This document shows, in pieces, positions 8,231-32,041 of a stretch of 32,041 nucleotides of DNA (its first letter is position 1; each line of letters opens with the position of its first letter). The stretch is from IMG/VR virus record IMGVR_UViG_3300031658_000058, positions 1-32,041 of that record. One strand, written 5' to 3'. The translations under genes and the position numbers were made by a program. Under the pieces are notes generated by a model. The model saw only the letters and a program-made list of their open reading frames with translations. It ran no database searches and was not told the DNA's origin. This stretch comes from a virus.

Positions 8231-10050
8231 TGGCTGAACAAAGAGACATAAAATACGTTAATAGAGAGTTCGGGGACTTTAAAGAACAGTTAACCGAATT
8301 TGCGAAATCATATTTCCCAGACTCTTATAATGACTTTAATGAAACAGCCCCTGGTATGATGTTTATTGAAATGGCATCATATGTAGGAGACGTCTTATCT
8401 TTCTATCAAGATACTCAACTTCAAGAGACCTTCTTACAACACGCACAAAACCCCTCTAACCTATACAGCTTAGCGTATATGATGGGATACAGACCTAGAG
8501 CTTCTTCGGCAGCTTCAGCAGACTTAACTATTGAACAAAAAGTACAAGCCCTATCCGGTAGTAATTATTCTCCAGATTGGGACCAAGCATGTAAGGTACA
8601 TGAAAACGGAAGTATAATATCAACTGCAAAAGGTAATACAACATTTTTACTTCAAGACTCTATAGATTTTAAATTCTCTAGTTCATACGATCCTACAAAT
8701 ATACAAATAGCTTCTGTAGACGAATCAAATAACCCTGCAGAATACTTATTAAGTAAGACAGGAAAAGTAATATCAGGAGAAGTTAATACAGTAACAGAGA
8801 CTATTACTACAGCAGAAAAATACTTAACTCTAAACATAACTGATACTAACATTATAAAAGTATTAGACATAGTAGATGCAGATGGAAACCTCTGGACAGA
8901 AGTTCCATTCTTAGGTCAAGATACAGTATTTAATATAGCAGAAAATAAATCATCCGACACTACACTAGTACCTAGTCTATTAGAACTTAAAAAAGTACCT
9001 AGAAGATTTGTTTCTAGATTCACCTCTAAAGGAGTAATGCAAGTACAATTCGGAGCAGGAGTTACAGCTTCCGATGATGAAAACTTTTTACCTGACCCTT
9101 CTACTATTCAAAAGTATGGAGATCAACAATCAGTTGATAAGTTAGATATAGCATATGACCCATCTAATTTTCTATTTACAAGAACCTACGGATTAGCTCC
9201 CTCTAATACTACCCTTACTATAAGGTATATAAAAGGTGGAGGAGTAGCAGCAAATGCTCCTGCAGGTACAATTACTACATCAGGCGTTATAACAACCTCT
9301 GTAACAGATAGTACATTCCTAGCTACCCTAACATTCAATAATGAAAAACCAGCCTCTGGAGGTAAAGACGGAGATACTGTAGAAGAGTTAAGACAGAATT
9401 CTTTAAAATCATTTGCAGAACAGAAACGTACCGTTACATCAGCAGATTATAAAGTAAGAGCACTATCTATGCCACCTGAATTTGGCTCACTTGCAAAAGT
9501 ATACGTTACAAGAGAGTACAATGCTAATACTAATAGAAGTGTGCTGGATCAAAATCCATTAGCGCTCGCAATGTATGTCTTAGCATATGATGAAAACGGA
9601 TACTTAACAGCAGCATCTAAGTCACTTAAGGAGAACTTAAAGAAATACCTATCAGAATACATGATGATAACAGATGCAATAGATATTAAAGATGCATTTG
9701 TAATTAATATAGGAGTTCAATTTGAAGTACTTACACTACCTAATTATGCTTCTAGAGATGTACTAATGAAATGTACAGAAGCACTTAAAAAATACTTCTC
9801 TTCTAGTAAGAGAGACATTAATCAACCGGTTAATACCTCAAACGTATTTACTGTACTTGACGGGATTAAAGGAGTACAGACAGTCAAGACGGTTAAGTTA
9901 ATTAATAAAGCTACAGGAAAATACTCAGCATTTGCTTATGATGTATTAGGGGCAACAAAAGATGGAGTTGTATACCCGTCTTATGATCCATGTATCTTTG
10001 AAATAAAATATCCCGATATTGATATTGAAGGAAGAGTAACAACTATATAA
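8230..10050 (+). CDS. Baseplate wedge protein, gp6/baseplate-J-like
   Basis: This protein of 606 aa is close in size to T4 gp6. The N-terminal signature FNETAPGMMFIEMASYVGDV (about 36-55), followed by LSFYQDTQLQETFL, is that of gp6 and baseplate J proteins. A central domain of beta strands is followed by the J-like core around GKDGDTVEELRQNSLKSF, RTVTSADYKVRA and the C-terminal DAIDIKDAFVINIGVQFEV region. gp6 dimers form the inner ring of the baseplate around the hub. It directly follows gp25 and overlaps its stop codon by one base. The wedge assignment is strong from the N-terminal signature plus order. Confidence 0.87.
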   Translation: MAEQRDIKYVNREFGDFKEQLTEFAKSYFPDSYNDFNETAPGMMFIEMASYVGDVLSFYQDTQLQETFLQHAQNPSNLYSLAYMMGYRPRASSAASADLTIEQKVQALSGSNYSPDWDQACKVHENGSIISTAKGNTTFLLQDSIDFKFSSSYDPTNIQIASVDESNNPAEYLLSKTGKVISGEVNTVTETITTAEKYLTLNITDTNIIKVLDIVDADGNLWTEVPFLGQDTVFNIAENKSSDTTLVPSLLELKKVPRRFVSRFTSKGVMQVQFGAGVTASDDENFLPDPSTIQKYGDQQSVDKLDIAYDPSNFLFTRTYGLAPSNTTLTIRYIKGGGVAANAPAGTITTSGVITTSVTDSTFLATLTFNNEKPASGGKDGDTVEELRQNSLKSFAEQKRTVTSADYKVRALSMPPEFGSLAKVYVTREYNANTNRSVLDQNPLALAMYVLAYDENGYLTAASKSLKENLKKYLSEYMMITDAIDIKDAFVINIGVQFEVLTLPNYASRDVLMKCTEALKKYFSSSKRDINQPVNTSNVFTVLDGIKGVQTVKTVKLINKATGKYSAFAYDVLGATKDGVVYPSYDPCIFEIKYPDIDIEGRVTTI

Positions 10051-17177: not shown

Positions 17178-18200
17178 ATGAGTGCATTCAAGCAATTAAA
17201 CCGTCAAGATGTTTATGTTACCGACTATACCTCAAATAAACAGTGGTATGCCTCTGGTAGCACTATAAGCGAGTACGGTCTCGAAGTTTTAAGAGGATTC
17301 TCAGGCTCGACACCTGGGTACCCTTATCCTTCTGACTTACGCAACGGCAGACATCAAAAACTAACTTACGATAGTACCTTTCATAACTACTATACAGGGA
17401 GTTTAGGTACGGGTGTATTCTCTGGTTCATTTGATCTCTCTTTACAGACTACTTTAACACTAACAGGCTCAAGAAGTGCTTCAGCAGAAGTTGCAGTAGT
17501 TTCTATACCTAGAAGTGTTTACGGTATTGGAATACAGCCCGGTACAGTAATGATGAAACCTTTTCAAGAAGAGACAGACCGGTATAATGTAAATGGGTAT
17601 GTTTGTGCAAACAATTATGTTGAGGATTACGTAGAAAGATTAGATTACTGGTACGGAACAGATAAAATAGACCTTGAAGATTATACGCAACCAGAAGGAG
17701 ACTACGTTGATGAAAGTGCTAGCCAGTATGTAGATGATGACGACACCCTAAAATACGAAAGGTTAGAAGTAGTAGATGATGGAGAAGGAAGATTAATTCT
17801 TTCTGGATCTGGAGCTACATACACACAGAAAGAACGTGTAGTAGGAGATGTTATTTATAATCAAGGACAGATAATCATATCAGATCCTGAGGTAGCAAGA
17901 TATTATTCAACTTATGCACGTCATATTGTGCACTGGAAATCAAAACTACCTATTTATACATATAATGTACATTGTACGGTTAAGGAAACAGAATTAAACA
18001 GTACCCTTAATCCATCAGCAATAACAGGTTCAAACGGCGTAATACAAAATAATATTACGGGAAGTCAATTTAGACCTTATATTACTACAGTGGGATTATA
18101 TAATGAGGCAAATGAATTATTAGCAGTAGCTAAAACAAATAAAGCAATACCGAAATCAGAGAATGTTGATATGACGTTTGTAATAAAATTAGATATATAA
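17178..18200 (+). CDS. Tail structural protein, paralog B
   Basis: The protein has 340 aa and is the paralog of the preceding gene product (shared N-terminal RQDVYV pattern and C-terminal TVGLYNEANELLAVAK, IKLDI). The middle differs: it is Tyr/Asp-rich (DYVERLDYWYGTDKIDLEDY) and much more acidic than its partner. That is where a changed contact surface would be expected after duplication. I chose the ATG at 17178; an ATG four bases earlier (17174) opens a different, short frame. It ends two bases before the first S74 fibre gene, so the pair could form the proximal fibre or its attachment point. Confidence 0.72.
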   Translation: MSAFKQLNRQDVYVTDYTSNKQWYASGSTISEYGLEVLRGFSGSTPGYPYPSDLRNGRHQKLTYDSTFHNYYTGSLGTGVFSGSFDLSLQTTLTLTGSRSASAEVAVVSIPRSVYGIGIQPGTVMMKPFQEETDRYNVNGYVCANNYVEDYVERLDYWYGTDKIDLEDYTQPEGDYVDESASQYVDDDDTLKYERLEVVDDGEGRLILSGSGATYTQKERVVGDVIYNQGQIIISDPEVARYYSTYARHIVHWKSKLPIYTYNVHCTVKETELNSTLNPSAITGSNGVIQNNITGSQFRPYITTVGLYNEANELLAVAKTNKAIPKSENVDMTFVIKLDI

Positions 18201-18201
18201 A

Positions 18202-18861
18202 ATGGCAATAGTATTCAGAGCAGATAAAGGATCACCGCTTACGTATTCACAGTTAGATAATAACTTCGGATCGTACTTCTATTCAGCATCAACGAATGGA
18301 CAGGTTCTTACAATGTACTACCCATCTTCTTCCCAAGTACCAGTTAATAGCGGGTCAATAGATTTTAGTTTAATAAAAGGGTTACAGGATGCAGGAATAA
18401 ATAAACGTTTAGCAGTCTATTCAGGTTCATCAGCAATATCATCAAGTCAGGGTTTCATACTTGATGCAAATGATAATTTAGGATTAGGGGTAAACGAAGC
18501 ATCAGACCTTCCACTTGCATATAAGTTAGTCGTATCAGGAAGTATTAAAGCAACAGGGACAGTAGTTCAAGGCTCAGATGAAAGACTAAAAGAAGACATA
18601 GCACCAATAGATAATGCATTAAGCAGAATTAATCATATAGACGGAGTATTTTTTAAGTACAAAGATTCCGGAGACAAGAGTATTGGTTTTATTGCACAAC
18701 AAATACAAAAAGTATTACCAGAAGTTGTATCAGAAGATAATAATGGCTATCTTGGAGTGAACTATAGCGGAGTAACTGCTGTACTAGTTGAAGCAATTAG
18801 AGAACAATCTTCGATCATAAGCGACCTAGAAAGTCGTTTATCTAAATTAGAAAATAAATAA
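18202..18861 (+). CDS. Short tail fibre with S74 intramolecular chaperone domain
   Basis: The protein has 219 aa. The N-terminal segment (VFRADKGSPLTYSQLDNNFG, 4-23) is an anchor shared with the next fibre. From about residue 122 a peptidase S74 (ICA) domain begins: GSDERLKEDI puts the catalytic-type Ser125 and Lys130 in the spacing known from endosialidase chaperones. Next come SIGFIAQQIQKVLPEVV and a C-terminal coiled coil (about 195-219). S74 domains help trimerise beta-helical fibres and then cut themselves off just before the Ser. If this happens, the mature fibre would be only ~124 residues, unusually short. It may instead be a chaperone or short side fibre for its larger neighbour. Confidence 0.82.
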   Translation: MAIVFRADKGSPLTYSQLDNNFGSYFYSASTNGQVLTMYYPSSSQVPVNSGSIDFSLIKGLQDAGINKRLAVYSGSSAISSSQGFILDANDNLGLGVNEASDLPLAYKLVVSGSIKATGTVVQGSDERLKEDIAPIDNALSRINHIDGVFFKYKDSGDKSIGFIAQQIQKVLPEVVSEDNNGYLGVNYSGVTAVLVEAIREQSSIISDLESRLSKLENK

Positions 18862-18862
18862 G

Positions 18863-20617
18863 ATGGCTTATAACAATAAAATAACGTTAAGGGCGGTTAA
18901 GGGGAGTTCCTTAACTCATACAGAGCTTGATAGTAACTTTCAAAAGCTTTACGTATCGTCCTCAACCTCTGGGTCAGCGTTATTTATGTTTCGATCCTCA
19001 TCTGATTACCCCTCTGACGAATTGGCAATGCCAACTCCAAAAGGTATAGTAGGTTCAGTACAATTAAAACAAGGAGCAGCATTATCAGGCTCCGGAACAA
19101 CATTCACAGGATCTAAAGACCTTACTTTTGATTTTGAAAATAAAGTATTAACAGTTACAGGTTCTTCTTTTTATAAAGGAGACGTAACAGTAGATGGGAG
19201 AATGACTGCAAAGGTTTTTCAATCTCAAACTATTATTGCATCAACCTCCACAGGTTCAACTTCATTTGGAGATACAGCAGATGACTTTCATATTAGAACA
19301 GGTTCATTTGAAGTACTAGGTAACTCAACTAATGTTGGAGTATTAAGTACAACAGGATTTCCTAATATTTCATCTTCAATAGGAGCATTAGAGAATTTTA
19401 GTTCTTCTTTAGATAATTTTTATACAACTGATGTAGACCATATTGCATCAGAATCAGCACATAGTTCATCAGCACATATAGATAGAACTGCTAGAATACA
19501 ATTACTATCAGGATCAGCTCATAGTCAGAGAGGGATTCTATACACATATAACTCAGCTTCAATTGTTACACTATCAGGATCAGCACACGTACAGAGATCA
19601 GCACTATTTAATGCTAATGTACTAGGAACCTCTACATTAAGTTCTTCAGCTCATACCGACCGTGTAGCTAAGGTTAATGTATTGAGTGGCTCCGCTCATA
19701 CTGATCGTATAGCTAAAGTTGCTATACTAAGTGCTTCATTGCATACAGCTACTTTAAAGAACACTACAGATACTTTTACCGGTAATTTAGACGTTATAGG
19801 AAGAGTTTCTGGATCAGCCGATTTTCAAGGATCTGATATAAACATTTTACATTGGGGATCAGTATCAGCATCCTTAGCATCAGTATCAGCTGCTGCTGGA
19901 GCTAGTGATGTTACAATTAATAATAATGTAAATAATAGAGTATTAACAGCAACAGGTACAGATGCTTTAAACGGAGAAACCGCGCTTACTTGGGACGGTA
20001 CTAGCTTACAGGCTGGAGGAACTAAGATAAGAAATTTCGGTACATCAGATACAGACATTACAACTGTATTACCTACAGCACTTTCTGGATCTATACTAGA
20101 AGGGTTTAATGGAGGCTCTCTTGTAATAGGTCTAAGAGACGATACATTTGGACAAGATGCTTTCTCTATTATAGGAGGAGGAGGACAGTACTACAGTACA
20201 GGAAACTATACTCATAAACTATTTAGCGTTTCCGGTTCAGGAGATGTAACAACATTAGGTAAAATAACAACAGGAGGTAATTTAGATGTAACAGGTACAA
20301 TTACTGCTACTAGCGATATTACTGCATATTACTCTTCAGATAGAAGACTTAAAGACAACATTACTAAGATTACCAATCCAATACAAAAAGTACAAGCTAT
20401 TGGAGGATATGAGTTTGATTGGAATTCACTCTCAGAAAAAGAAGGACATGATGTTGGTGTAATAGCCCAAGAAATTGAATCAGTACTTCCAGAGCTTGTA
20501 GTCAATAGAGATAATGGCTATAAAGCTGTACGTTATGAAAAAATTGTCGCGTTATTAATAGAAGCTATTAAGGACCAGCAGTTACAAATCGATGAGCTAA
20601 AAACTAAATTGCTCTAG
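18863..20617 (+). CDS. Long tail fibre with S74 intramolecular chaperone domain
   Basis: The protein has 584 aa. It has the same N-terminal anchor as the 219-aa fibre (LRAVKGSSLTHTELDSNF). The shaft is a Ser/Gly/Thr-rich beta region. A repeat zone at about 198-295 has LSGSAHTDR-type units, and the C-terminal S74 domain starts at S492-D-R-R-L-K497. HDVGVIAQEIESVLPELV and a coiled-coil tail (AIKDQQLQIDELKTKLL) complete it. The protein is expected to trimerise and self-cleave before Ser492, leaving a ~491-residue fibre that would bind the host receptor. It closes the structural module; the following gene encodes a GIY-YIG-like protein. Confidence 0.85.
   Translation: MAYNNKITLRAVKGSSLTHTELDSNFQKLYVSSSTSGSALFMFRSSSDYPSDELAMPTPKGIVGSVQLKQGAALSGSGTTFTGSKDLTFDFENKVLTVTGSSFYKGDVTVDGRMTAKVFQSQTIIASTSTGSTSFGDTADDFHIRTGSFEVLGNSTNVGVLSTTGFPNISSSIGALENFSSSLDNFYTTDVDHIASESAHSSSAHIDRTARIQLLSGSAHSQRGILYTYNSASIVTLSGSAHVQRSALFNANVLGTSTLSSSAHTDRVAKVNVLSGSAHTDRIAKVAILSASLHTATLKNTTDTFTGNLDVIGRVSGSADFQGSDINILHWGSVSASLASVSAAAGASDVTINNNVNNRVLTATGTDALNGETALTWDGTSLQAGGTKIRNFGTSDTDITTVLPTALSGSILEGFNGGSLVIGLRDDTFGQDAFSIIGGGGQYYSTGNYTHKLFSVSGSGDVTTLGKITTGGNLDVTGTITATSDITAYYSSDRRLKDNITKITNPIQKVQAIGGYEFDWNSLSEKEGHDVGVIAQEIESVLPELVVNRDNGYKAVRYEKIVALLIEAIKDQQLQIDELKTKLL
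19454..19746 (+). repeat. Protein-level tandem repeat in tail fibre (LSGSAHTDR-type units)
   Basis: Residues about 198-295 contain six or seven imperfect units around (L)-S-(G/S)-S-A-H-x-x-R. The clearest two are LSSSAHTDRVAKVNV and LSGSAHTDRIAKVAI, each 15 residues. At DNA level the copies have drifted by synonymous changes, so this is an old, selected protein repeat and not a fresh duplication. A regular His/Arg ladder in a trimeric shaft is the simplest reading. Confidence 0.75.
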
Positions 20618-20634
20618 AGACAAAATCAAAAACT

Positions 20635-21114
20635 ATGGAAATGACAAACCCGACTTGGATTTACCAAGGAAGGATGATCACAGATATAACAGACATGCCT
20701 AAGGGCACCTATGGCTTTATCTATGAAACAAAACACATCCGAACTGGTATAAAGTATATTGGCAAAAAAGTTCTCTTTTTTGAACGTAACAAAAGACTAG
20801 GAAAACGAGCATTAGAAGAGTTAAGATTAGAAAGAAAAGCAAAAGGTATAGGAGGTAGAACTCCTGCTAAACAGAAAATAATTACAGAATCAGATTGGGA
20901 AACTTATCACGGCTCTCAAAAAGAAATATTAAAGTTAGTTAAGGAAGGAGATCCTAAAGACTTTAATAGAACTATTCTCGCGTTTGTACCTACTAAGAAG
21001 CTTTTAACATATTATGAGTGTAAGTACCTATTTATTAATGACGTACTTGAAACACAGGATTATATTAATGATAATGTGTTAGGTAAGTTTTACAGAAAAG
21101 ATTTCAACTTATGA
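20635..21114 (+). CDS. GIY-YIG nuclease-superfamily-like protein
   Basis: The protein has 159 aa. The paired strands of the GIY-YIG fold can be seen as YGFIY (26-30) and YIGKK (41-45). A conserved SDW-x-x-Y-x-GS block follows (86-94), and Glu128 in YYECKYLF is the candidate metal-binding Glu. I recall the same arrangement in cyanophage and marine myovirus proteins annotated as GIY-YIG or Seg-like nucleases. The first strand reads GFIY and not GIY. Role is open: a homing-type endonuclease, a DNA-repair or recombination nuclease, or a non-catalytic relative. Two in-frame ATGs (20635, 20641) are possible. It overlaps the next gene by four bases, so it belongs to the same transcript and does not look like an insertion. 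Confidence 0.66.
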   Translation: MEMTNPTWIYQGRMITDITDMPKGTYGFIYETKHIRTGIKYIGKKVLFFERNKRLGKRALEELRLERKAKGIGGRTPAKQKIITESDWETYHGSQKEILKLVKEGDPKDFNRTILAFVPTKKLLTYYECKYLFINDVLETQDYINDNVLGKFYRKDFNL

Positions 21115-21896
21115 TACAACTAAAAGACGTAATAGGATATCCATCTCTTAAGTACCATTTAGACAATGGTCTCTCTTTACATGAGCATGTCTACCGCTAT
21201 TCAAGCGACGCCTTTGTTAATCTATTTAAAGAAGCAAGGGAAGCTCTTAGAGACGAGGAGATTGAATTATCCGAGGAGGATCAAGAACTATTAGAAACTA
21301 CAGATATTGGAGAACATGGAGATTATAACGGTATGAAAGTACCTTTAGATTTACCTATGGTCTCCACCAAGTACAATCCACTCTTTGAAATCGGGTCACT
21401 CATTGACGAAATGATTGAAGATGAAAACACAATTGACGAAGCGTCAACTATTGCAGATATGATTAATTTTGAACAAATCGAGGAATTGGTTAGTTCAATT
21501 GGAGGTCAAATCGATATGGATAAGTTCAAAAAGGCAGTCACACTTCAAAATGAGACCTTCGATTTTAATGGATTTGAATTAATAAAAGCCTCAGTCACTT
21601 ACATGAATGAGCTAGAATATAAAGGAAAGAAAGTAAAACTAAATAAACCTAAACGTGGAGGCTCTAAAAAATTCTACGTATATGTTAAATCTAAAAAAGG
21701 TAATGTAAAAAAAGTATCCTTCGGGGATACTAACTTATCAGTTAAGTTTAAACAAAAAGGAGCAAGAGCATCATTTGCAGCCCGACATAAATGTGCTACT
21801 AAGAAAGACAAAACAAAAGCAGGGTACTGGTCCTGTAATATAGGTCGATATTGGAAATCATTAGGCGGCAGCGCTAACTTTTCAGGATACTGGTAA
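21111..21896 (+). CDS. Hypothetical marine-myovirus protein with Cys-containing C-terminal domain
   Basis: The protein has 261 aa. The N-terminal part (about 20-120) includes LHEHVYRYSSDAFVNLFKEA, an acidic helix, then TTDIGEHGDYNGMKVPLDLP; I associate this block with structural or virion-linked proteins of marine phages. The C-terminal part (about 188-261) is basic: FYVYVKSKKGNVKKVSFGD is followed by RASFAARHKC-x(4)-KDKTKAGYWSC. I recall that the latter domain is catalogued as DUF5872, without known function. The Cys pair might bind metal or form a disulphide. It starts inside the preceding stop (ATGA-type overlap). The C-terminal KAGYWSC resembles KMYHWC in the 716-aa protein, so the two share a theme. 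Confidence 0.68.
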   Translation: MIQLKDVIGYPSLKYHLDNGLSLHEHVYRYSSDAFVNLFKEAREALRDEEIELSEEDQELLETTDIGEHGDYNGMKVPLDLPMVSTKYNPLFEIGSLIDEMIEDENTIDEASTIADMINFEQIEELVSSIGGQIDMDKFKKAVTLQNETFDFNGFELIKASVTYMNELEYKGKKVKLNKPKRGGSKKFYVYVKSKKGNVKKVSFGDTNLSVKFKQKGARASFAARHKCATKKDKTKAGYWSCNIGRYWKSLGGSANFSGYW

Positions 21897-21897
21897 T

Positions 21898-22215
21898 ATG
21901 AGACTAAGTGAAATTCTACTAAGAGAAAATAAAGATACATTTAATGACTTCGCCGAAGGAAGAGGTAAGGGAGCAGGTAAGATTGCTGACTCAGCTAAAG
22001 AAAAGGGAGGAGATTCAATGTTAACACATCATCACTTTAATATAAAACTTGCTTATTATAAGAAAGCAGCAGAGGGTAAATTCGATTTAGATAAAGCTAA
22101 AGAAGAATTCACCGCTACTCATAGTAAAATTAACTCAAGTATGGATCCTATATCTTTCCAAAAAGAAATGGGTAGGTTAGAAGTATTAGGAGAGTTAATT
22201 ATTAAGCACGGATAG
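21898..22215 (+). CDS. Hypothetical protein with capsid-targeting-like N-terminus
   Basis: The protein has 105 aa. It is helical and strongly charged (Lys, Asp, Glu), with a His run (THHHFN) at about 43-48 and no hydrophobic segment. The first ten residues, M-R-L-S-E-I-L-L-R-E, fit the pattern seen on the kinase, the HAD protein and the 143-aa protein, ending in an L-x-E site. In T4-like phages an N-terminal peptide of this type targets internal proteins into the prohead and is cut by the head protease after the Glu. A small, charged, soluble body would fit an internal head protein. That is inference. Confidence 0.65.
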   Translation: MRLSEILLRENKDTFNDFAEGRGKGAGKIADSAKEKGGDSMLTHHHFNIKLAYYKKAAEGKFDLDKAKEEFTATHSKINSSMDPISFQKEMGRLEVLGELIIKHG

Positions 22216-22519: not shown

Positions 22520-22951
22520 ATGAAACTAAGAAGTATTATTTTTGAAGGGTTTGAACCAGCAACATCTATTATTAACGGTAAAACATACTCTGTAGACTGG
22601 TTAGGTTCAACAGATACCTTAGAAGAGTTTAAAAAACTTCTTGGTAGAGTACCTGATACTATAAAATCTATTGAAGTACCTACAAACCTAAAGAACTTTA
22701 AATCTGGCAACGATTTTAAATCATTAGAACCAAAAGGGAACTGGAAAGAAGATGTTCTTAATATCATTCAAACAGTTATAAATGATGATAAATCTAAGAT
22801 AGTAGATAGATTTACACTCTCTTCTTATTTCGGAGTAAGTCATATGCCCGGAAAAAATAATACTGACCCAGTATATATACAGTTAGATTCACAATCTTCT
22901 AGAGACTTCGATGCAGACATGAGTGCCGGAAAATACGGACCACTAGATTAA
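22520..22951 (+). CDS. Hypothetical protein with capsid-targeting-like N-terminus
   Basis: The protein has 143 aa. It starts M-K-L-R-S-I-I-F-E, again a short amphipathic peptide ending in an I-x-E site as in four other proteins here. The remainder is soluble, mixed alpha/beta, with no recognisable motif (SIINGKTYSVDWLGSTDTLE, YFGVSHMPGKNNTDPVYIQL). It is the last gene before a hairpin and a new promoter, so it ends the transcription unit that began with the structural genes. If the N-terminal signal is genuine, it would be a packaged internal protein. Confidence 0.65.
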   Translation: MKLRSIIFEGFEPATSIINGKTYSVDWLGSTDTLEEFKKLLGRVPDTIKSIEVPTNLKNFKSGNDFKSLEPKGNWKEDVLNIIQTVINDDKSKIVDRFTLSSYFGVSHMPGKNNTDPVYIQLDSQSSRDFDADMSAGKYGPLD

Positions 22952-24728: not shown

Positions 24729-25661
24729 ATGAAAAAACTATTATTAACCTTAACATTACTTATATTCGTAAGCTGTTCTACCTTTAGGCTCTCAACTCAT
24801 AATTATGACCCCATATACGGACCATCAGGAGAAGAAATAGAAGTAAAAGTAATTAATAGTCAATGGGAGTTAAATAGAGAGTTAAGAAATAACTTCCAGT
24901 TTAGGTACGACATTGCTCAATATGCACTAAGCCAACCTAGATCATTTGATTGGAATAATAGATTATTAGGTAGAAGGTATAATGTTTATAATTCATATTA
25001 TGGATTTGGATATAGTAACTATTGGAATAGAGATCAAATGTGGAATGATTGGGTGTGGGGATATCCATACGGAAACGGAATAGGATGGTCTTACAGTTGG
25101 AATAACAGAAGATGGTCATCTAACCAATGGGGTAACGGATATGGTTGGAACGGATATAATAACTGGGGGTACGGAAATAGTTGGTATGATCCCTATAATA
25201 GACGTGGATACGCTGCTAACTCTTGGAATAATCGAACTAATTATAATAATAGGAGAAATGTAGCTAGAATGACCGGTAGAAGAGGAGAAGCAATATCAGG
25301 CACTACAGGGAATACCCTAGTTAACCTTACTCCAGTTTCAGAAACCAGAGTAGATAAGATTACTAGAGAACTTAGAAATAAAGATATAAAAGTAAGAGTA
25401 ATAAATAACCCGATTAACAATGATCAAATTAACAGACTTAATATTAGAAGAAACATCGTCCCGACCCAAATTAATAGTAATGGCGGGAGGAGCAGGAGCA
25501 GGGAAATCACACCTATTATCCCAGTTAGGACTACAGTCCCTACCACTCGTCAACCCAGACAAATACGTAGAGGACCAGGACCATCCAGCGTACAACAACC
25601 TGTCAGCCGCAACAGCAGCAGCCAATCGAGAAGCAGCAGCACTAGCAGACGGAAAAACTAG
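24729..25661 (+). CDS. Lipoprotein with N/Y/W/G-rich body and RS-rich tail (Bacteroidetes-like)
   Basis: The protein has 310 aa. Signal peptide 1-15 (KK, then LLLTLTLLIFVS) ends at Cys16 in a lipobox-like F-V-S-C. The middle (about 76-172) is rich in Asn, Tyr, Trp, Gly and Arg (NSYYGFGYSNYWNRDQMWND, SWNNRRWSSN). The C-terminal 80 residues become Pro, Arg and Ser-rich (RQIRRGPGPSS, SQSRSSSTSRRKN). I know this architecture from flavobacterial secreted proteins without established function, so the gene may have been taken from the host. It is placed in the phage replication region, three bases after the nuclease gene. The last 242 bases overlap the kinase gene in a different frame, and the overlap has raised G+C. 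If expressed it would coat the host cell envelope. Confidence 0.72.
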   Translation: MKKLLLTLTLLIFVSCSTFRLSTHNYDPIYGPSGEEIEVKVINSQWELNRELRNNFQFRYDIAQYALSQPRSFDWNNRLLGRRYNVYNSYYGFGYSNYWNRDQMWNDWVWGYPYGNGIGWSYSWNNRRWSSNQWGNGYGWNGYNNWGYGNSWYDPYNRRGYAANSWNNRTNYNNRRNVARMTGRRGEAISGTTGNTLVNLTPVSETRVDKITRELRNKDIKVRVINNPINNDQINRLNIRRNIVPTQINSNGGRSRSREITPIIPVRTTVPTTRQPRQIRRGPGPSSVQQPVSRNSSSQSRSSSTSRRKN

Positions 25662-26352
25662 TTTCGTATGGGATACTACAGCTTCTAACCCTAAGAAGGT
25701 AAAAGAGCTCCAAGACTTGGGGTATGATATCTATATGGTAATGGTGTATGCTCATCCTATGATTGCATACGTATCTAATTTCTCTAGAAAGCGAAGTACT
25801 CCTTCATCAGCAGTCTTTTCAACTTGGCGTAATGTTTATCAACTCATCGGGGAGTACGATAAAATGTTAAATGGTCAACTTGCAATCTATGTTAATGACA
25901 GAGGTAATCAATTTAAAAAAGAAATAGAGTCTTTTGACTTAGCAGCAAGATCAGGAGTAGATGGAGTTAGGGATTATTTACAGAAGTATAATACAGAACA
26001 TGAAGTTGGAGGATCATCATTCTTTAAACCAGTAGAATGGAACGAAGAAGAAGAGAATGAATTTAATACCGCTGCAACTGGAATAGATTGGGACACATCT
26101 AATCGCTCAGAGGATAAAGCCATTAAACAAGCTTTTCTTAAAGCATATAGAAAAAACGGAGTAGGTCCAGGTGCAGATAAACTTAAACTAGCAGTAACTA
26201 AATACAGAGATCAAAAAGTTAATAATAGAAATAAGGCTGATGACGTACTTGCAAATATTGCAGATATGTTATATAGCCCTAAGTTTCAAGAAAAACTAGA
26301 GCATTCTACTCCAAAAGAAGTAGATGCAAAATTACAAGCATTTTTAGCATGA
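25420..26352 (+). CDS. P-loop kinase, zeta-toxin/AAA_33-like
   Basis: The protein has 310 aa. The Walker A motif GGAGAGKS (23-30) lies close to the N-terminus, followed by VNPDKY (44-49) and VWDTTAS (84-90), as in zeta-toxin-like and polynucleotide-kinase-like enzymes. These phosphorylate nucleotide sugars, nucleosides or RNA 5' ends; which applies here is unknown. The first ten residues, M-I-K-L-T-D-L-I-L-E, precede the fold and end in an I-x-E site, like a T4 capsid-targeting sequence. The first 80 codons overlap the lipoprotein gene out of frame. Its stop overlaps the 716-aa gene by four bases. The next genes encode a nucleotidyltransferase fusion and a HAD phosphatase, so the cluster handles phosphates or nucleotides. 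Confidence 0.78.
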   Translation: MIKLTDLILEETSSRPKLIVMAGGAGAGKSHLLSQLGLQSLPLVNPDKYVEDQDHPAYNNLSAATAAANREAAALADGKTSFVWDTTASNPKKVKELQDLGYDIYMVMVYAHPMIAYVSNFSRKRSTPSSAVFSTWRNVYQLIGEYDKMLNGQLAIYVNDRGNQFKKEIESFDLAARSGVDGVRDYLQKYNTEHEVGGSSFFKPVEWNEEEENEFNTAATGIDWDTSNRSEDKAIKQAFLKAYRKNGVGPGADKLKLAVTKYRDQKVNNRNKADDVLANIADMLYSPKFQEKLEHSTPKEVDAKLQAFLA

Positions 26353-28499
26353 TAGCATTATATCCAGGAGCATTTAAACCTCCACATAGAGGACATTTTA
26401 ACGTCATTAAGTCTTTACTTGATGGAACGTATAATGGATCTATATACGATAAGGATAACTATAAAGAAAAAGGTGCAGCTTTACTTGGTGGCTCTACAGA
26501 TAAAAAACCTTCTATTAATAAGGTGATAGTCTTTGTAGGAGGCGGTGAGAGAAACGGTATAACAAAGGAAGAGTCGATGTCTATTTGGAATATTTACGCT
26601 AAACATTTAGGTAATATTGAAATATTAGACGGACAAAAGAATCCGATGTTTGCTGCTAAGGAATATGCACAAGCTAACCCTAAACAGGAGATGGTAGCTG
26701 TAACAGGAATAAGAGGTGAAAAAGATTATGTAGATTTAAGAAGGGTAACTACTTTTAAAAATGCTCCAAACGTTCAAGGATTAGCTTTGGCAGCAGCAGC
26801 AGGATCAGGATTTAGAGCATCAGACTTTAGAGATAAAATATTATCAGGAAACTTAGATCAAATTACGGATTACTTTCCTGAAGCTCTATCAAGCGAGGAA
26901 ATTTTAAGTATATTAACAGATCTTAAAGATAAAATAGTTGCTGAAATCTTAGCAGGTAATATAGAAGGGTTTTTAACAGAGTACTTTGGAGTAAGTGAAG
27001 AGATAGAAACAACCAAAGAAGATAGACCCGAGTATACAGAACAAATAGGCTCTATATTAGAGTATATGTTAGATAAGAAAATGAATATACTACCCTTACC
27101 GGAAGTAAAGGTTAGGTATGATGATGAAAACGCAGAAAACTTCTTCGGTAAAACTGCCTACTATGATCCGAACTCTAAAGAAATAGTATTATATGCCACA
27201 GGAAGACATGCTAAAGATATATGTAGATCTTTCACACATGAAATGGTACACCATATTCAGAACCTAGAGGGAAGATTAAACAATGTACAGACACAAAATA
27301 CTAATGACGACAAAGCTTTATTAGCTCTAGAAGCAGAAGCTTACTTAACCGGTAATCTTACATTCAGAAATTGGGAAGATTCTATTAAGGGTAATAAAGA
27401 AGTGTCTGAAGTAATTACAAATAAAATTGTATGTGATAATTGTGGTTGGAGCTGGAATAAAGAAGACGGAGGAGATGATTTATACATCTGTCATAAATGT
27501 AATAACGATAACACACCTCCTGCTTTAGAAAATTTTAAAGACGGTAAAGTAAAAGGTAAAAGCAAACCAGGTAGAGTAAAGAAATCAGGAGCTAGTTGCA
27601 AAGGTTCTAAATCAGAACTTAGAGCCAAAGCAAAGAAGTACGGAGGAGAAAAAGGTAAAATGTATCATTGGTGTGCTAATATAAAAGAGGGAGTTATGGC
27701 AGAAGGCAAGTATGATAGTATAGTCACCTACTTAACCGGTAGGAGTATTGAAGCGATTAAAAATGCTTTAACAAAGAAATTGCACCATTATAAAGAAGGT
27801 CATTTTGGAGATTCTGCTAAAGAAGATTCTTTAATTTCTATGAAAAAAGAATTAGCAACTCTCTATCCGATTATGATGGTAGAAGTACCAGAAGATATAA
27901 CAAAACAGTTTCAAAAAGATTCTGACTTGTCTTTTGATTACGATTTAAAAGTAATGTTCGTTAAGGGGTTAGACAAGATAATGAGAGATGGTGGAGCATA
28001 CAAAGGAGGTTTAGGTAAAGACGACTCTTGGGAAGAACCTAAAATTGAATTAGAATTTGCAGTTGACCCTTATAATTTTCCTAGAGACTTTGAAGAAATG
28101 TCTGCACAGATATCTGACGTATTAAGACACGAAATAGAACACCTTACTCAAGCTGGAGGAAATGAAAGAGGTAAAGATTTTACTGGAGGAGACTTTAAAG
28201 GTACTTTCGGTACCAAAGAAGAAATGCAAGTAAGAACACTTATACAACAGGGACTAATTGACAACGGGGTTAAATATCTTACCCTACCCTCAGAAATAGA
28301 TGCTAATATACAAGGAATGTACCTAACAGCTAAGAAGCAAAAGAGACCTTTTGTTGACGTAGTTGATCAGTACTTATATGCTTATACAGAACAATTCGAT
28401 GCAGACGGTAATCCGTACTTAACGAAAAAAGATGTAGAAGATGTAAAAAGAGTTTGGTCTTTAAGACTACCTGCTTTAGGTATTAAACAGAAATTATAA
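26349..28499 (+). CDS. Multidomain fusion: HxGH nucleotidyltransferase, two HExxH metalloprotease-like domains and zinc ribbon
   Basis: The protein has 716 aa. Residues 1-180: nucleotidyltransferase fold with YPGAFKPPHRGH (His13, His16) and GSGFRASDFRDKILSG in place of the ISSTxxR box, as in NMN/pantetheine-phosphate adenylyltransferases. Residues about 225-340: a zincin-like domain with HEMVH (297-301) and E-A-E-A-Y (328-332) as the likely third ligand. Residues 362-384: zinc ribbon (CDNC and CHKC). Residues 413-446: a small domain, GASCKGSKSELRAKAKKYGG to MYHWC. Residues 500-716: a second zincin-like domain with HEIEH (594-598). No known enzyme has this set. It overlaps the kinase stop by four bases (ATGA). 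Possible roles are NAD/nucleotide synthesis plus proteolysis, or a polyprotein cut apart later. Confidence 0.78.
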   Translation: MIALYPGAFKPPHRGHFNVIKSLLDGTYNGSIYDKDNYKEKGAALLGGSTDKKPSINKVIVFVGGGERNGITKEESMSIWNIYAKHLGNIEILDGQKNPMFAAKEYAQANPKQEMVAVTGIRGEKDYVDLRRVTTFKNAPNVQGLALAAAAGSGFRASDFRDKILSGNLDQITDYFPEALSSEEILSILTDLKDKIVAEILAGNIEGFLTEYFGVSEEIETTKEDRPEYTEQIGSILEYMLDKKMNILPLPEVKVRYDDENAENFFGKTAYYDPNSKEIVLYATGRHAKDICRSFTHEMVHHIQNLEGRLNNVQTQNTNDDKALLALEAEAYLTGNLTFRNWEDSIKGNKEVSEVITNKIVCDNCGWSWNKEDGGDDLYICHKCNNDNTPPALENFKDGKVKGKSKPGRVKKSGASCKGSKSELRAKAKKYGGEKGKMYHWCANIKEGVMAEGKYDSIVTYLTGRSIEAIKNALTKKLHHYKEGHFGDSAKEDSLISMKKELATLYPIMMVEVPEDITKQFQKDSDLSFDYDLKVMFVKGLDKIMRDGGAYKGGLGKDDSWEEPKIELEFAVDPYNFPRDFEEMSAQISDVLRHEIEHLTQAGGNERGKDFTGGDFKGTFGTKEEMQVRTLIQQGLIDNGVKYLTLPSEIDANIQGMYLTAKKQKRPFVDVVDQYLYAYTEQFDADGNPYLTKKDVEDVKRVWSLRLPALGIKQKL

Positions 28500-28510: not shown

Positions 28511-29056
28511 ATGAAAAAAAGTTTAGTAGATTTATTAGAAGCTTATCCGATAGTGGAAAAAAAAGAATTACCACCGTATAAGATATATTGTGATATGGAT
28601 GGAGTATTAACAGATTTTGAATCGAGATTTGAACATTACTCCGGAATGCATCCACAGGCATATGAGAAAGAAAAAGGAACACCAGCATTCTGGGAGTTAA
28701 TAGATGTTAAAGTTGGAATTGGATTTTGGATAGGAATGGACTTTATGCCTCAAGGCAAACAGTTATGGGATTTTATTATGCCGTATAAACCTGACTTATT
28801 AACTTCTCCTTCAAGACATAACAACTCTAGATTAGGTAAACAGCTATGGGCTAAGAATAACTTAAGTCCGAAGCCAAAAGTAATAATGGCATACTCTAAA
28901 GATAAACAGAGATATGCAAATGAAAATAGTATATTAATTGACGACAAACCGTCTAATATAAACGAATGGGCATCAAAAGGCGGAATAGCAATTAGATGTA
29001 AAAACGGAAACGTTGACCATGTTATAGAAAAACTAAAAGAATTAGGTTATGAGTGA
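28511..29056 (+). CDS. HAD-superfamily phosphatase, 5'-nucleotidase-like
   Basis: The protein has 181 aa. HAD motif I is YCDMDGVLTDF (Asp28 nucleophile, Asp30), motif II is probably LLTSPS (about 97-101), and motif IV is ILIDDKPSN (Asp144, Asp145). The GVLTDF form is typical of 5'(3')-deoxyribonucleotidases and related phosphatases. Substrates would be nucleoside monophosphates or 3'/5' phosphate ends. The first ten residues, M-K-K-S-L-V-D-L-L-E, lie before the fold and end in an L-x-E site, as in the kinase and two small proteins. Upstream AAAAAAAGGTTAT gives one of the few plausible Shine-Dalgarno-like leaders. It overlaps the zinc-finger gene by eight bases. Confidence 0.83.
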   Translation: MKKSLVDLLEAYPIVEKKELPPYKIYCDMDGVLTDFESRFEHYSGMHPQAYEKEKGTPAFWELIDVKVGIGFWIGMDFMPQGKQLWDFIMPYKPDLLTSPSRHNNSRLGKQLWAKNNLSPKPKVIMAYSKDKQRYANENSILIDDKPSNINEWASKGGIAIRCKNGNVDHVIEKLKELGYE

Positions 29057-30745: not shown

Positions 30746-32041
30746 ATGACTTACAAGGAGATAAAAGACCGATTAACGAAGTGTGAATCTACACTTACTA
30801 GTTTAAAGGCACAGACTATACAGACAAAAGCAGTTGAGAATCAAATCAAAACACTAGCTCTTGTAAAAGAGTCTCTCCATAATAAATTAACTCTATTAGA
30901 AGGTAAAGCTAAAACATACTTAGTAACCCCTAAACAAGGTGAAACAACTGCAGTTTCTTTAGGTGATGATGACATAGATGCATTAAAGGATGCTGATGAC
31001 GTAAAAACAATTAAAGGAGTAGACGGAGAAGAGATAAAAGAAGAAGTAGGTGACTTTACTGTTGACCAAACAAAGGCAATTGCAAAACAAGTAGGCGCAG
31101 CAGTAGCAAAGGCTTTAAAGATAGGTGGAGAAGAAGTAGCCTCTATGAAGGGTAAGAACATAGAAGAAAATTCTTTTGATATATACGTTCAATATAAGAA
31201 TAACTCAGACGATGCATTCTCTTTCCACATAGAAAAAGATAAATTAATATTAGCAGACTTTACTTTCTCAAAAGAAATGGGAGAAGTAGGTATAAAACCA
31301 TCAGGTGAAGCTATAGTAATGGTAGACGTAATTGCAGATAATTTAAATACTCATTTTAAATCTCTCAATACAGTAGGAGAGCAATTTGGAGATAACCAGA
31401 AAGGGAGTTATGCTAATAAGCAAATTAAAAATAACTTAGAGAGAAGAAAAGCAAATACAGATGATTCAGATGTTATAGCTAAAATAGACTTAGCATTGAG
31501 CAAATTAAATGAAATGGACAGACTTAATATTAGCAAGTCTTTTTTTATAGAAGTATCAATTAGAACTGCAAGAAAAGCTTTAATGGTATTAGATGATATG
31601 TTTAGAGGTCAATTTGAAACAGAAGGATCTAATTATTATACATTTGCTAATGAACAAGACGGGTATGATGCAGGAATAGAAATGGCTTCCCAGGGAATTG
31701 AGTTAGAAGATACTAATATAGAAGGGTTAGAAGAAGATGCTGTATTTGATGGAGACGATGAAGCAGCAGAAACAGACTATATGACACGTCGTAGAGCAAC
31801 AGACGACTATAAAGAAGGTCCTGTTAGAGAAGGCCCTTATCAAACCACATATATTAAAATTAGTCAGAGAGATTATAAAAAAGCAATGGCTATATTAGAC
31901 GGTAATATAGACCCAACTTACGCTACGATGGACATTGTAGATGATGATGGAGACGGTAACGTAATTATCTACTTTAACTTTAGAGCTAAAGATGACGGAG
32001 AACCAGGTGAAGATGTAGGAGAGTTTATATACGACTTGTCC
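30746..32041 (+). CDS. Acidic hypothetical protein, 3' end cut by the window
   Basis: Reading from ATG 30746 the frame is open to the end: 432 codons without a stop. The first ~55 residues form a charged coiled-coil-like helix (MTYKEIKDRLTKCESTLTSL and on). Then come an Asp-rich segment (LGDDDIDALKDADD), a mixed alpha/beta region with FDIYVQYKNNSDDAFSFHIE, and a very acidic stretch around EDTNIEGLEEDAVFDGDDEA. A further beta/alpha part runs out of the window. There is no signal peptide, metal motif or known catalytic pattern. It follows a candidate late promoter. The start has only A/T-rich bases upstream. Function is unknown; acidic, Asp-rich proteins of this kind in phages may mimic nucleic acid or bind calcium, which is speculation. 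Confidence 0.72.
   Translation, partial: MTYKEIKDRLTKCESTLTSLKAQTIQTKAVENQIKTLALVKESLHNKLTLLEGKAKTYLVTPKQGETTAVSLGDDDIDALKDADDVKTIKGVDGEEIKEEVGDFTVDQTKAIAKQVGAAVAKALKIGGEEVASMKGKNIEENSFDIYVQYKNNSDDAFSFHIEKDKLILADFTFSKEMGEVGIKPSGEAIVMVDVIADNLNTHFKSLNTVGEQFGDNQKGSYANKQIKNNLERRKANTDDSDVIAKIDLALSKLNEMDRLNISKSFFIEVSIRTARKALMVLDDMFRGQFETEGSNYYTFANEQDGYDAGIEMASQGIELEDTNIEGLEEDAVFDGDDEAAETDYMTRRRATDDYKEGPVREGPYQTTYIKISQRDYKKAMAILDGNIDPTYATMDIVDDDGDGNVIIYFNFRAKDDGEPGEDVGEFIYDLS

Follow-up and report, generated by a model that had tools for sequence, protein, structure and literature searches.

A 716-aa multi-module phage protein as a probable capsid cargo polyprotein with candidate prohead-protease sites at its domain joints

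The 716-aa open reading frame at 26349..28499 (+) of the window, as we term the whole 32,041-nucleotide stretch analysed, a 32-kb virus-record fragment in which baseplate and tail genes precede this ORF, probably encodes a capsid cargo polyprotein that would be cut by a prohead protease and injected with the DNA; cleavage, packaging, injection and activities are all predicted from sequence. We favour this reading because of several features taken together: the shuffling of its modules (here A to E) among relatives, the [LIVMF]xE motifs at its module joints, the N-terminal tags of neighbouring genes, and a prohead protease encoded in the same cluster. The readings as a polyprotein and as an injected effector, two of the three offered in a preliminary description of the sequence, fit these features best. 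The source is a marine T4-like phage whose hosts are probably Flavobacteria.

The frame runs uninterrupted for 716 codons and carries HRGH (residues 13-16), HEMVH (297-301), EAEAY (328-332), cysteines at 362, 365, 381 and 384, KMYHWC (437-442) and HEIEH (594-598), each where the preliminary description had placed it. That description had considered that a sequencing error might join separate genes here, which is not so, as two separate contigs, L001 (92%) and L002 (100% over the best segment), hold the same 716-aa frame and architecture. These conserved homologues rule out a frameshift artefact or a chance motif, and the A-B-E arrangement without C-D is intact in many additional contigs. Relatives occur at about 300 places in IMG/VR, 80 of which were fetched, and the named relatives comprise only four records of Flavobacterium phage immuto, a phage of Flavobacterium sp. 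LMO8, whose 907-aa homologue (gp182) is annotated as an NMN adenylyltransferase. Searches of Pfam, PHROGs, NCBIfam, PADLOC and PDB sequences left the whole protein without an assignment, and its AlphaFold2 model had a mean pLDDT of 70.6.

Module A (residues 1-200; 26349..26948, +) is modelled at a pLDDT of mostly ~80-89 and, by its conserved residues and by Foldseek/VIA comparison, combines the fold of HIGH-type nucleotidylyltransferases with the HxGH motif. Its best PDB matches were to CoaD/PPAT (VIA Z 12.8, rmsd 2.7 over 150 residues), followed by NadM (Z 11.3) and NadD (Z 10.9), while NCBIfam matches were weak and confined to the first ~25 residues. Module A is no closer to NMNAT than to CoaD. 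With NadM and NadD only just behind CoaD, the NAD/nucleotide-metabolism enzyme proposed earlier is not established in its NAD role.

Of the two zincin-like domains, module B (residues 225-350; 27021..27398, +; HEMVH at 27237-27251, Glu328/330) is modelled at mostly ~84-95, and its elements follow the layout of a minimal zincin, namely a helix, strands, the HExxH helix and a Glu helix; the sequence and model together point to HExxH, a later Glu on a second helix and a three-stranded sheet. The Pfam family DUF6782 (putative metallopeptidase) matched it at 4.6e-5, below the gathering cut-off. HEM[IV]H occurs in all family members having a complete B domain, and the Glu-Ala-x-Ala-Tyr stretch downstream of it is conserved. 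Module E (residues 453-716; 27705..28496, +; HEIEH at 28128-28142) is modelled less confidently (~43-85), and its R-H-E-x-x-H and downstream Glu are invariant in 36 sequences. It had no match in Pfam or PHROG and none among PDB structures at E<0.001, where several zincins scored at VIA Z 3-4 (best ~4); viral models matched it at E 4e-8 to 3e-4, through uncultured phage proteins and a 'structural protein' of Serratia phage BF. A duplication of one domain into the other was rejected, as blastp detected no similarity between B and E (best E 3.2), and the earlier view that the second domain is not a simple copy of the first therefore stands. Between B and E lie module C, a CxxC...CxxC zinc ribbon with four cysteines (362-384; 27411..27524, +), and module D, which is basic and contains KMYHWC (residues 395-446; 27531..27686, +), and for which tblastn against named phages gave no match.

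The A-B core is common to about 75 IMG/VR loci and Flavobacterium phage immuto and stays constant across the family, the hot-spots that accept varying modules being the linker that joins A to B and the tail that follows B. In L021, L059 and L072-L074 module C separates A from B, C-D or D forms its own gene in most other loci, and E is joined after B in many. All of C, D, C-D and E, which the window's protein unites, are found elsewhere as genes of their own, and in relatives the same joints are filled by unrelated modules. Free versions of the modules are found as tagged genes, of ~73 aa for D in other phages and of ~249 aa for E in 51 other loci. The same mobility was seen for a NRYNxDGYDEGD module, which is inserted in L076 and L077 and free in L022 (MKLTDIILEQ-NRYN, 89% identical to the L076 copy), and for a module that we read as ParB-like (GNTRL motif), inserted in L077 and free in L057/L058. 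Because placement varies in this way, the window shows just one of many module combinations, and a fixed new enzyme order finds no support, as the order differs from phage to phage.

Several related genes were observed alongside these. L012/L013 are close relatives in which E is missing; there the A-B gene is directly followed, at the place where E is fused elsewhere, by an independent 129-aa gene (9099-9488) that bears a further HExxH motif (HEYQH). The immuto-type homologues (L081 19122-20000; L161, L178, L179) carry ~290 additional N-terminal residues with a GSVK(A/V)GSKSDY-like stretch; this extension recalls Pol-beta nucleotidyltransferases, and a Pfam search gave no match. A second large protein begins at 30746..32041 (+), where the window end cuts the gene; the complete 1223-aa multi-module protein of a near-identical strain (L197, 2697-6368) has a cargo-type LWANI module and takes up some of the modules shuffled in the family.

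At its joints the 716-aa protein holds candidate cleavage motifs of the form [LIVMF]xE, a short and degenerate pattern close to the T4 prohead-protease motif (PMC9026906). They are LTE209-211/Y in the low-confidence A/B linker (GFLTE/YFG; 26973..26981, +), VSE352-354/V before C-D (27402..27410, +), at the junction with the free C-D gene (L019:13182-13508), and VMAE449-452/GKYD at the D/E junction (27693..27704, +), where a slash marks the putative cut; ALE394 is a further, weaker candidate. LTE211, VSE354, ALE394 and MAE452 all lie inside, or at most three residues from, low-confidence linkers of the model. Across the family, the mature part of each free tagged gene was aligned within larger proteins and [LIVMF]xE was sought from -8 to +4 of the joint; it was found at 37 of 61 distinct fused/free junction contexts, for which the same proteins give an expectation of 12.7. 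The contexts cover 15 module types and are non-independent, and the search range and motif set were picked after examples were seen. Control motifs were not enriched at these junctions ([LIVMF]xD 11 against 16.3, [LIVMF]xK 14 against 20.5, x[LIVMF]E 15 against 12.7 expected), and strict [LI]xE was enriched more weakly (17 against 7.2). An unfiltered set of 179 junctions with 146 matches was discarded, as truncated ORFs had passed as free genes.

The joint of module E gave the clearest pattern, with Glu at P1 in 51/51 and a hydrophobic residue at P3 in 50/51 distinct contexts, fused and free, and Lys at P6 in 23/23 free and 21/28 fused contexts. Free E typically begins MIS[LM]Kx[LI][ILV]xE-GRYD, a 10-residue peptide ending in [LIV]xE, and fused E typically reads ...V-M-A-E-GKYD, so that the motif falls at the same point while the surrounding sequence diverges. 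At the D joint P3 is often non-hydrophobic. The invariant Glu of E and D could be part of the module instead of a cut site, and this bears on an unlikely alternative in which the chain stays whole as a multifunctional protein of the virion or the cytoplasm, its modules joined so as to be delivered together or in fixed stoichiometry, with [LIVMF]xE as a tag remnant or conserved module edge. Tag remnants would be expected when formerly tagged genes fuse, the P1 Glu of D and E may be structural, and the virion RNA polymerase of phage N4 enters the virion unprocessed (PMC5512222). Against this, hydrophobic-x-Glu is held at P3/P1 amid changing flanks in 28 distinct fused E contexts, and [LIVMF]xE is seen again across the 15 module types. 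We found no precedent in the literature for a cargo protein that is cut in the T4 manner between its own domains.

The 716-aa protein itself starts MIALYPGAF, without a ~10-residue targeting peptide ending in L/I-x-E, and the tag is absent from nearly all of its close homologues, only the distant L185 being tagged (MNNLSQFLLNGLLE-NESK). Tags are carried by its neighbours: upstream, with a 4-nt overlap, a Zeta-toxin-like P-loop kinase (25420..26352, +; MIKLTDLILE/E; Pfam Zeta_toxin 7.6e-10); downstream, a HAD 5'-nucleotidase-like protein (28511..29056, +; MKKSLVDLLE/A; phrog_2643 3.7e-21); and, further upstream, genes of 105 aa (21898..22215, +), with the N-terminal decapeptide MRLSEILLRE/N, and 143 aa (22520..22951, +; MKLRSIIFE/G). 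Among the 49 gene families of the loci fetched, 23 were tagged in at least 80% of their members, compared with a mean of 6.8 and a maximum of 13 over 200 permutations of residues 2-26 made family by family, and with 9 for an internal segment; a start of the MK[LIM]..II.E type occurs in members of 20 families. In the second phage group, which has free E, 7 of 19 families were tagged (permuted mean 1.8, maximum 5). In immuto, the motif is present in 24/34 N-termini of the cargo and head region at 101-131 kb against ~12 in shuffled sequences and is at chance level elsewhere, with early and tail genes not enriched; a search for a proteome of immuto gave no result. Literature searches, which covered few subscription journals, returned no description of tags of this kind, or of motifs at module joints, for T4-like phages from the sea.

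The second phage group also has a tagged (MIRLKQLLFE) phage tail lysozyme with a LysM domain (L165 1532-2362), and tags are therefore not restricted to proteins of unknown kind. This lysozyme could be a tail protein, as would suit a further explanation, namely that the decapeptides are some other late-gene trait (tail or membrane targeting, complex assembly, or an effect on translation initiation) and the 716-aa protein a cytoplasmic enzyme. We regard this as very improbable given that tag length and pattern agree with the T4 capsid targeting sequence (CTS), that the enrichment of tags in immuto is seen for the cargo and head region and not for early or tail genes, and that the prohead protease and scaffold-like neighbours bear the same motif near their N-termini.

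Other features of the neighbourhood were recorded as well. A lipoprotein-like ORF (24729-25661, +) shares 242 nt, read in a different frame, with the ORF of the tagged kinase, and in related loci an ORF that lies upstream on the + strand overlaps the kinase ORF by >90 nt in 67 of 72 cases; the N-terminal tag of the kinase therefore appears to be encoded inside another gene. The protein encoded at 21111-21896 (+) ends in an ARHKC...YWSC module (phrog_7595, 2.8e-13), which seems to reappear C-terminally in tagged proteins of the second phage group (ARYWSC). The product of 20635-21114 (+) looks like a GIY-YIG nuclease (GTYGFIYE...GIKYIGKK), and the annotation of its immuto counterpart as NAD synthetase is probably wrong.

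A gp21-type protease and a gp23-type capsid protein belong to the same phage, as judged from the L002 contig of a near-identical strain, where the prohead protease (18066-18635) and the major capsid protein (20488-22080) lie ~15-19 kb downstream of the 716-aa gene; the window fragment ends upstream of both. The order on this contig is 716-aa gene, HAD gene, 1223-aa protein, terminase, portal, prohead protease, a tagged gene (MKLIKVLLE-SP), scaffold-like and gp23-like, the terminase, portal and scaffold names being taken from position and similarity to annotated immuto genes. The protease is 75% identical to that of immuto, which matches phrog_207 at 6e-53. Both proteins are also present on other family contigs, and in the second phage group the protease was found on 4 of 8 contigs searched. 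The gp23-like N-terminus is dense in motifs (MEINSLLE..RLSEKW..GLLEGLGE..MILENQAKQIVAEAN), and gp23 propeptides are LxE-rich.

This protease bears directly on whether the chain might instead be a polyvalent effector cutting itself, with one or both zincin-like domains processing it before packaging or after injection. The chain does contain two HExxH domains, and zincin-like peptidases are the commonest domain of polyvalent proteins and proposed autoprocessors (PMC5512222); even so, we consider self-cutting improbable, as a dedicated prohead protease of fitting specificity is encoded nearby, members lacking E still hold the A/B linker motif, and the fold of E is unconfirmed by structure matches (VIA Z at most ~4). 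The junction motif is moreover the one that ends the tags of many zincin-free neighbours, and the self-processing protease of the preliminary description is accordingly the less favoured part of its readings.

For the cargo polyprotein, we propose that the precursor would be made late and enter the prohead core, where the gp21-type protease would cut after the Glu of [LIVMF]xE in flexible joints, that is after LTE211 (A/B), VSE354 (B/C-D) and VMAE452 (D/E), with ALE394 as a possible, weaker site. The adenylyltransferase-like enzyme, the two metallopeptidase-like domains and a small zinc-ribbon/basic piece would thereby come apart, leave the head together with the DNA and act early in infection, beside the neighbours bearing motif-ended N-terminal decapeptides. 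How the untagged precursor would be targeted is a matter for guesses, such as the helix at 182-203 (ending IVAE) or packaging together with the tagged upstream kinase, the two genes overlapping by 4 nt. The obvious guesses for host roles are nucleotide or cofactor chemistry for A and proteolysis for B and E.

More generally, there may be a modular cargo-loading code, to which we give somewhat less than an even chance, in which a module travels either as a decapeptide-tagged gene or behind an internal cut motif in an untagged polyprotein, with the prohead protease freeing the parts. The components are known, and what would be new is their union, an exchange of modules between tagged genes of their own and sites inside larger proteins, with the cut motif at both. 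In uncultured marine phages the majority of genes lack an assigned function; if the code is true, the proteins injected by T4-like members of this group could be listed from sequence by their tags and internal motifs, dozens of 'hypothetical' families in this lineage would become predicted injected effectors, and prohead-protease processing would be widened from propeptide removal to the separation of working domains.

Among known systems, the closest parallel for the tags lies in the T4 internal proteins IPI-IPIII and Alt, which carry a CTS and are cut by gp21 (PMC9026906, PMC3012670). Gp21 cuts after L/I-x-E, the 10 N-terminal residues that form the CTS of IPIII are sufficient for packaging, and the CTS has been suggested as a general loading route for diverse proteins (PMC9026906). 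Shared with our phages are late cargo genes beside head genes, highly diverse mature parts, the ~10-residue N-terminal tag ending in hydrophobic-x-Glu (here on the neighbours), the L/I-x-E motif and a gp21-type protease. In contrast to T4, there are far more tagged families here, the 716-aa protein is untagged, and the motif also stands at internal domain joints.

In module A, the fold and HxGH are shared with NadM, NadR and CoaD of the HIGH superfamily, a comparison that takes in phage NAD salvage (PMC9503650). The P-loop kinase gene next to the 716-aa gene is a further likeness, since NadR unites a kinase and an NMNAT in one protein. Differences are that the kinase is Zeta-toxin-like, that module A is fused to zincin-like domains, and that CoaD is the best PDB match with NadM and NadD close.

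With polyvalent proteins of phages and conjugative elements, which are described as injected chains of many domains, one or more of them a zincin, and of which P1 DdrB has been proposed by Iyer et al. (2017) to cut itself by its zincin (PMC5512222), the 716-aa protein shares a chain built of several unlike enzymatic domains that include one or two zincin-like ones, packaging genes close by, predicted injection and, in relatives, the module that we read as ParB-like. It differs in having given no match to named polyvalent domains in the profile searches, where B reached DUF6782 below the cut-off, in modules that also circulate as single tagged genes, and in processing that is predicted to be by the prohead protease, not by the zincin. 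The head cargo of phiKZ-like phages bears propeptides and is cut after x-x-Glu (PMC5694885), and the ejection proteins of SPN3US and 201phi2-1 (PMC5694885, PMC10052503) likewise combine head cargo, a gp21-like protease, x-x-Glu and several sites per protein. There, however, the cuts strip propeptides of up to >100 residues, whereas a separation of functional modules is what is newly predicted here.
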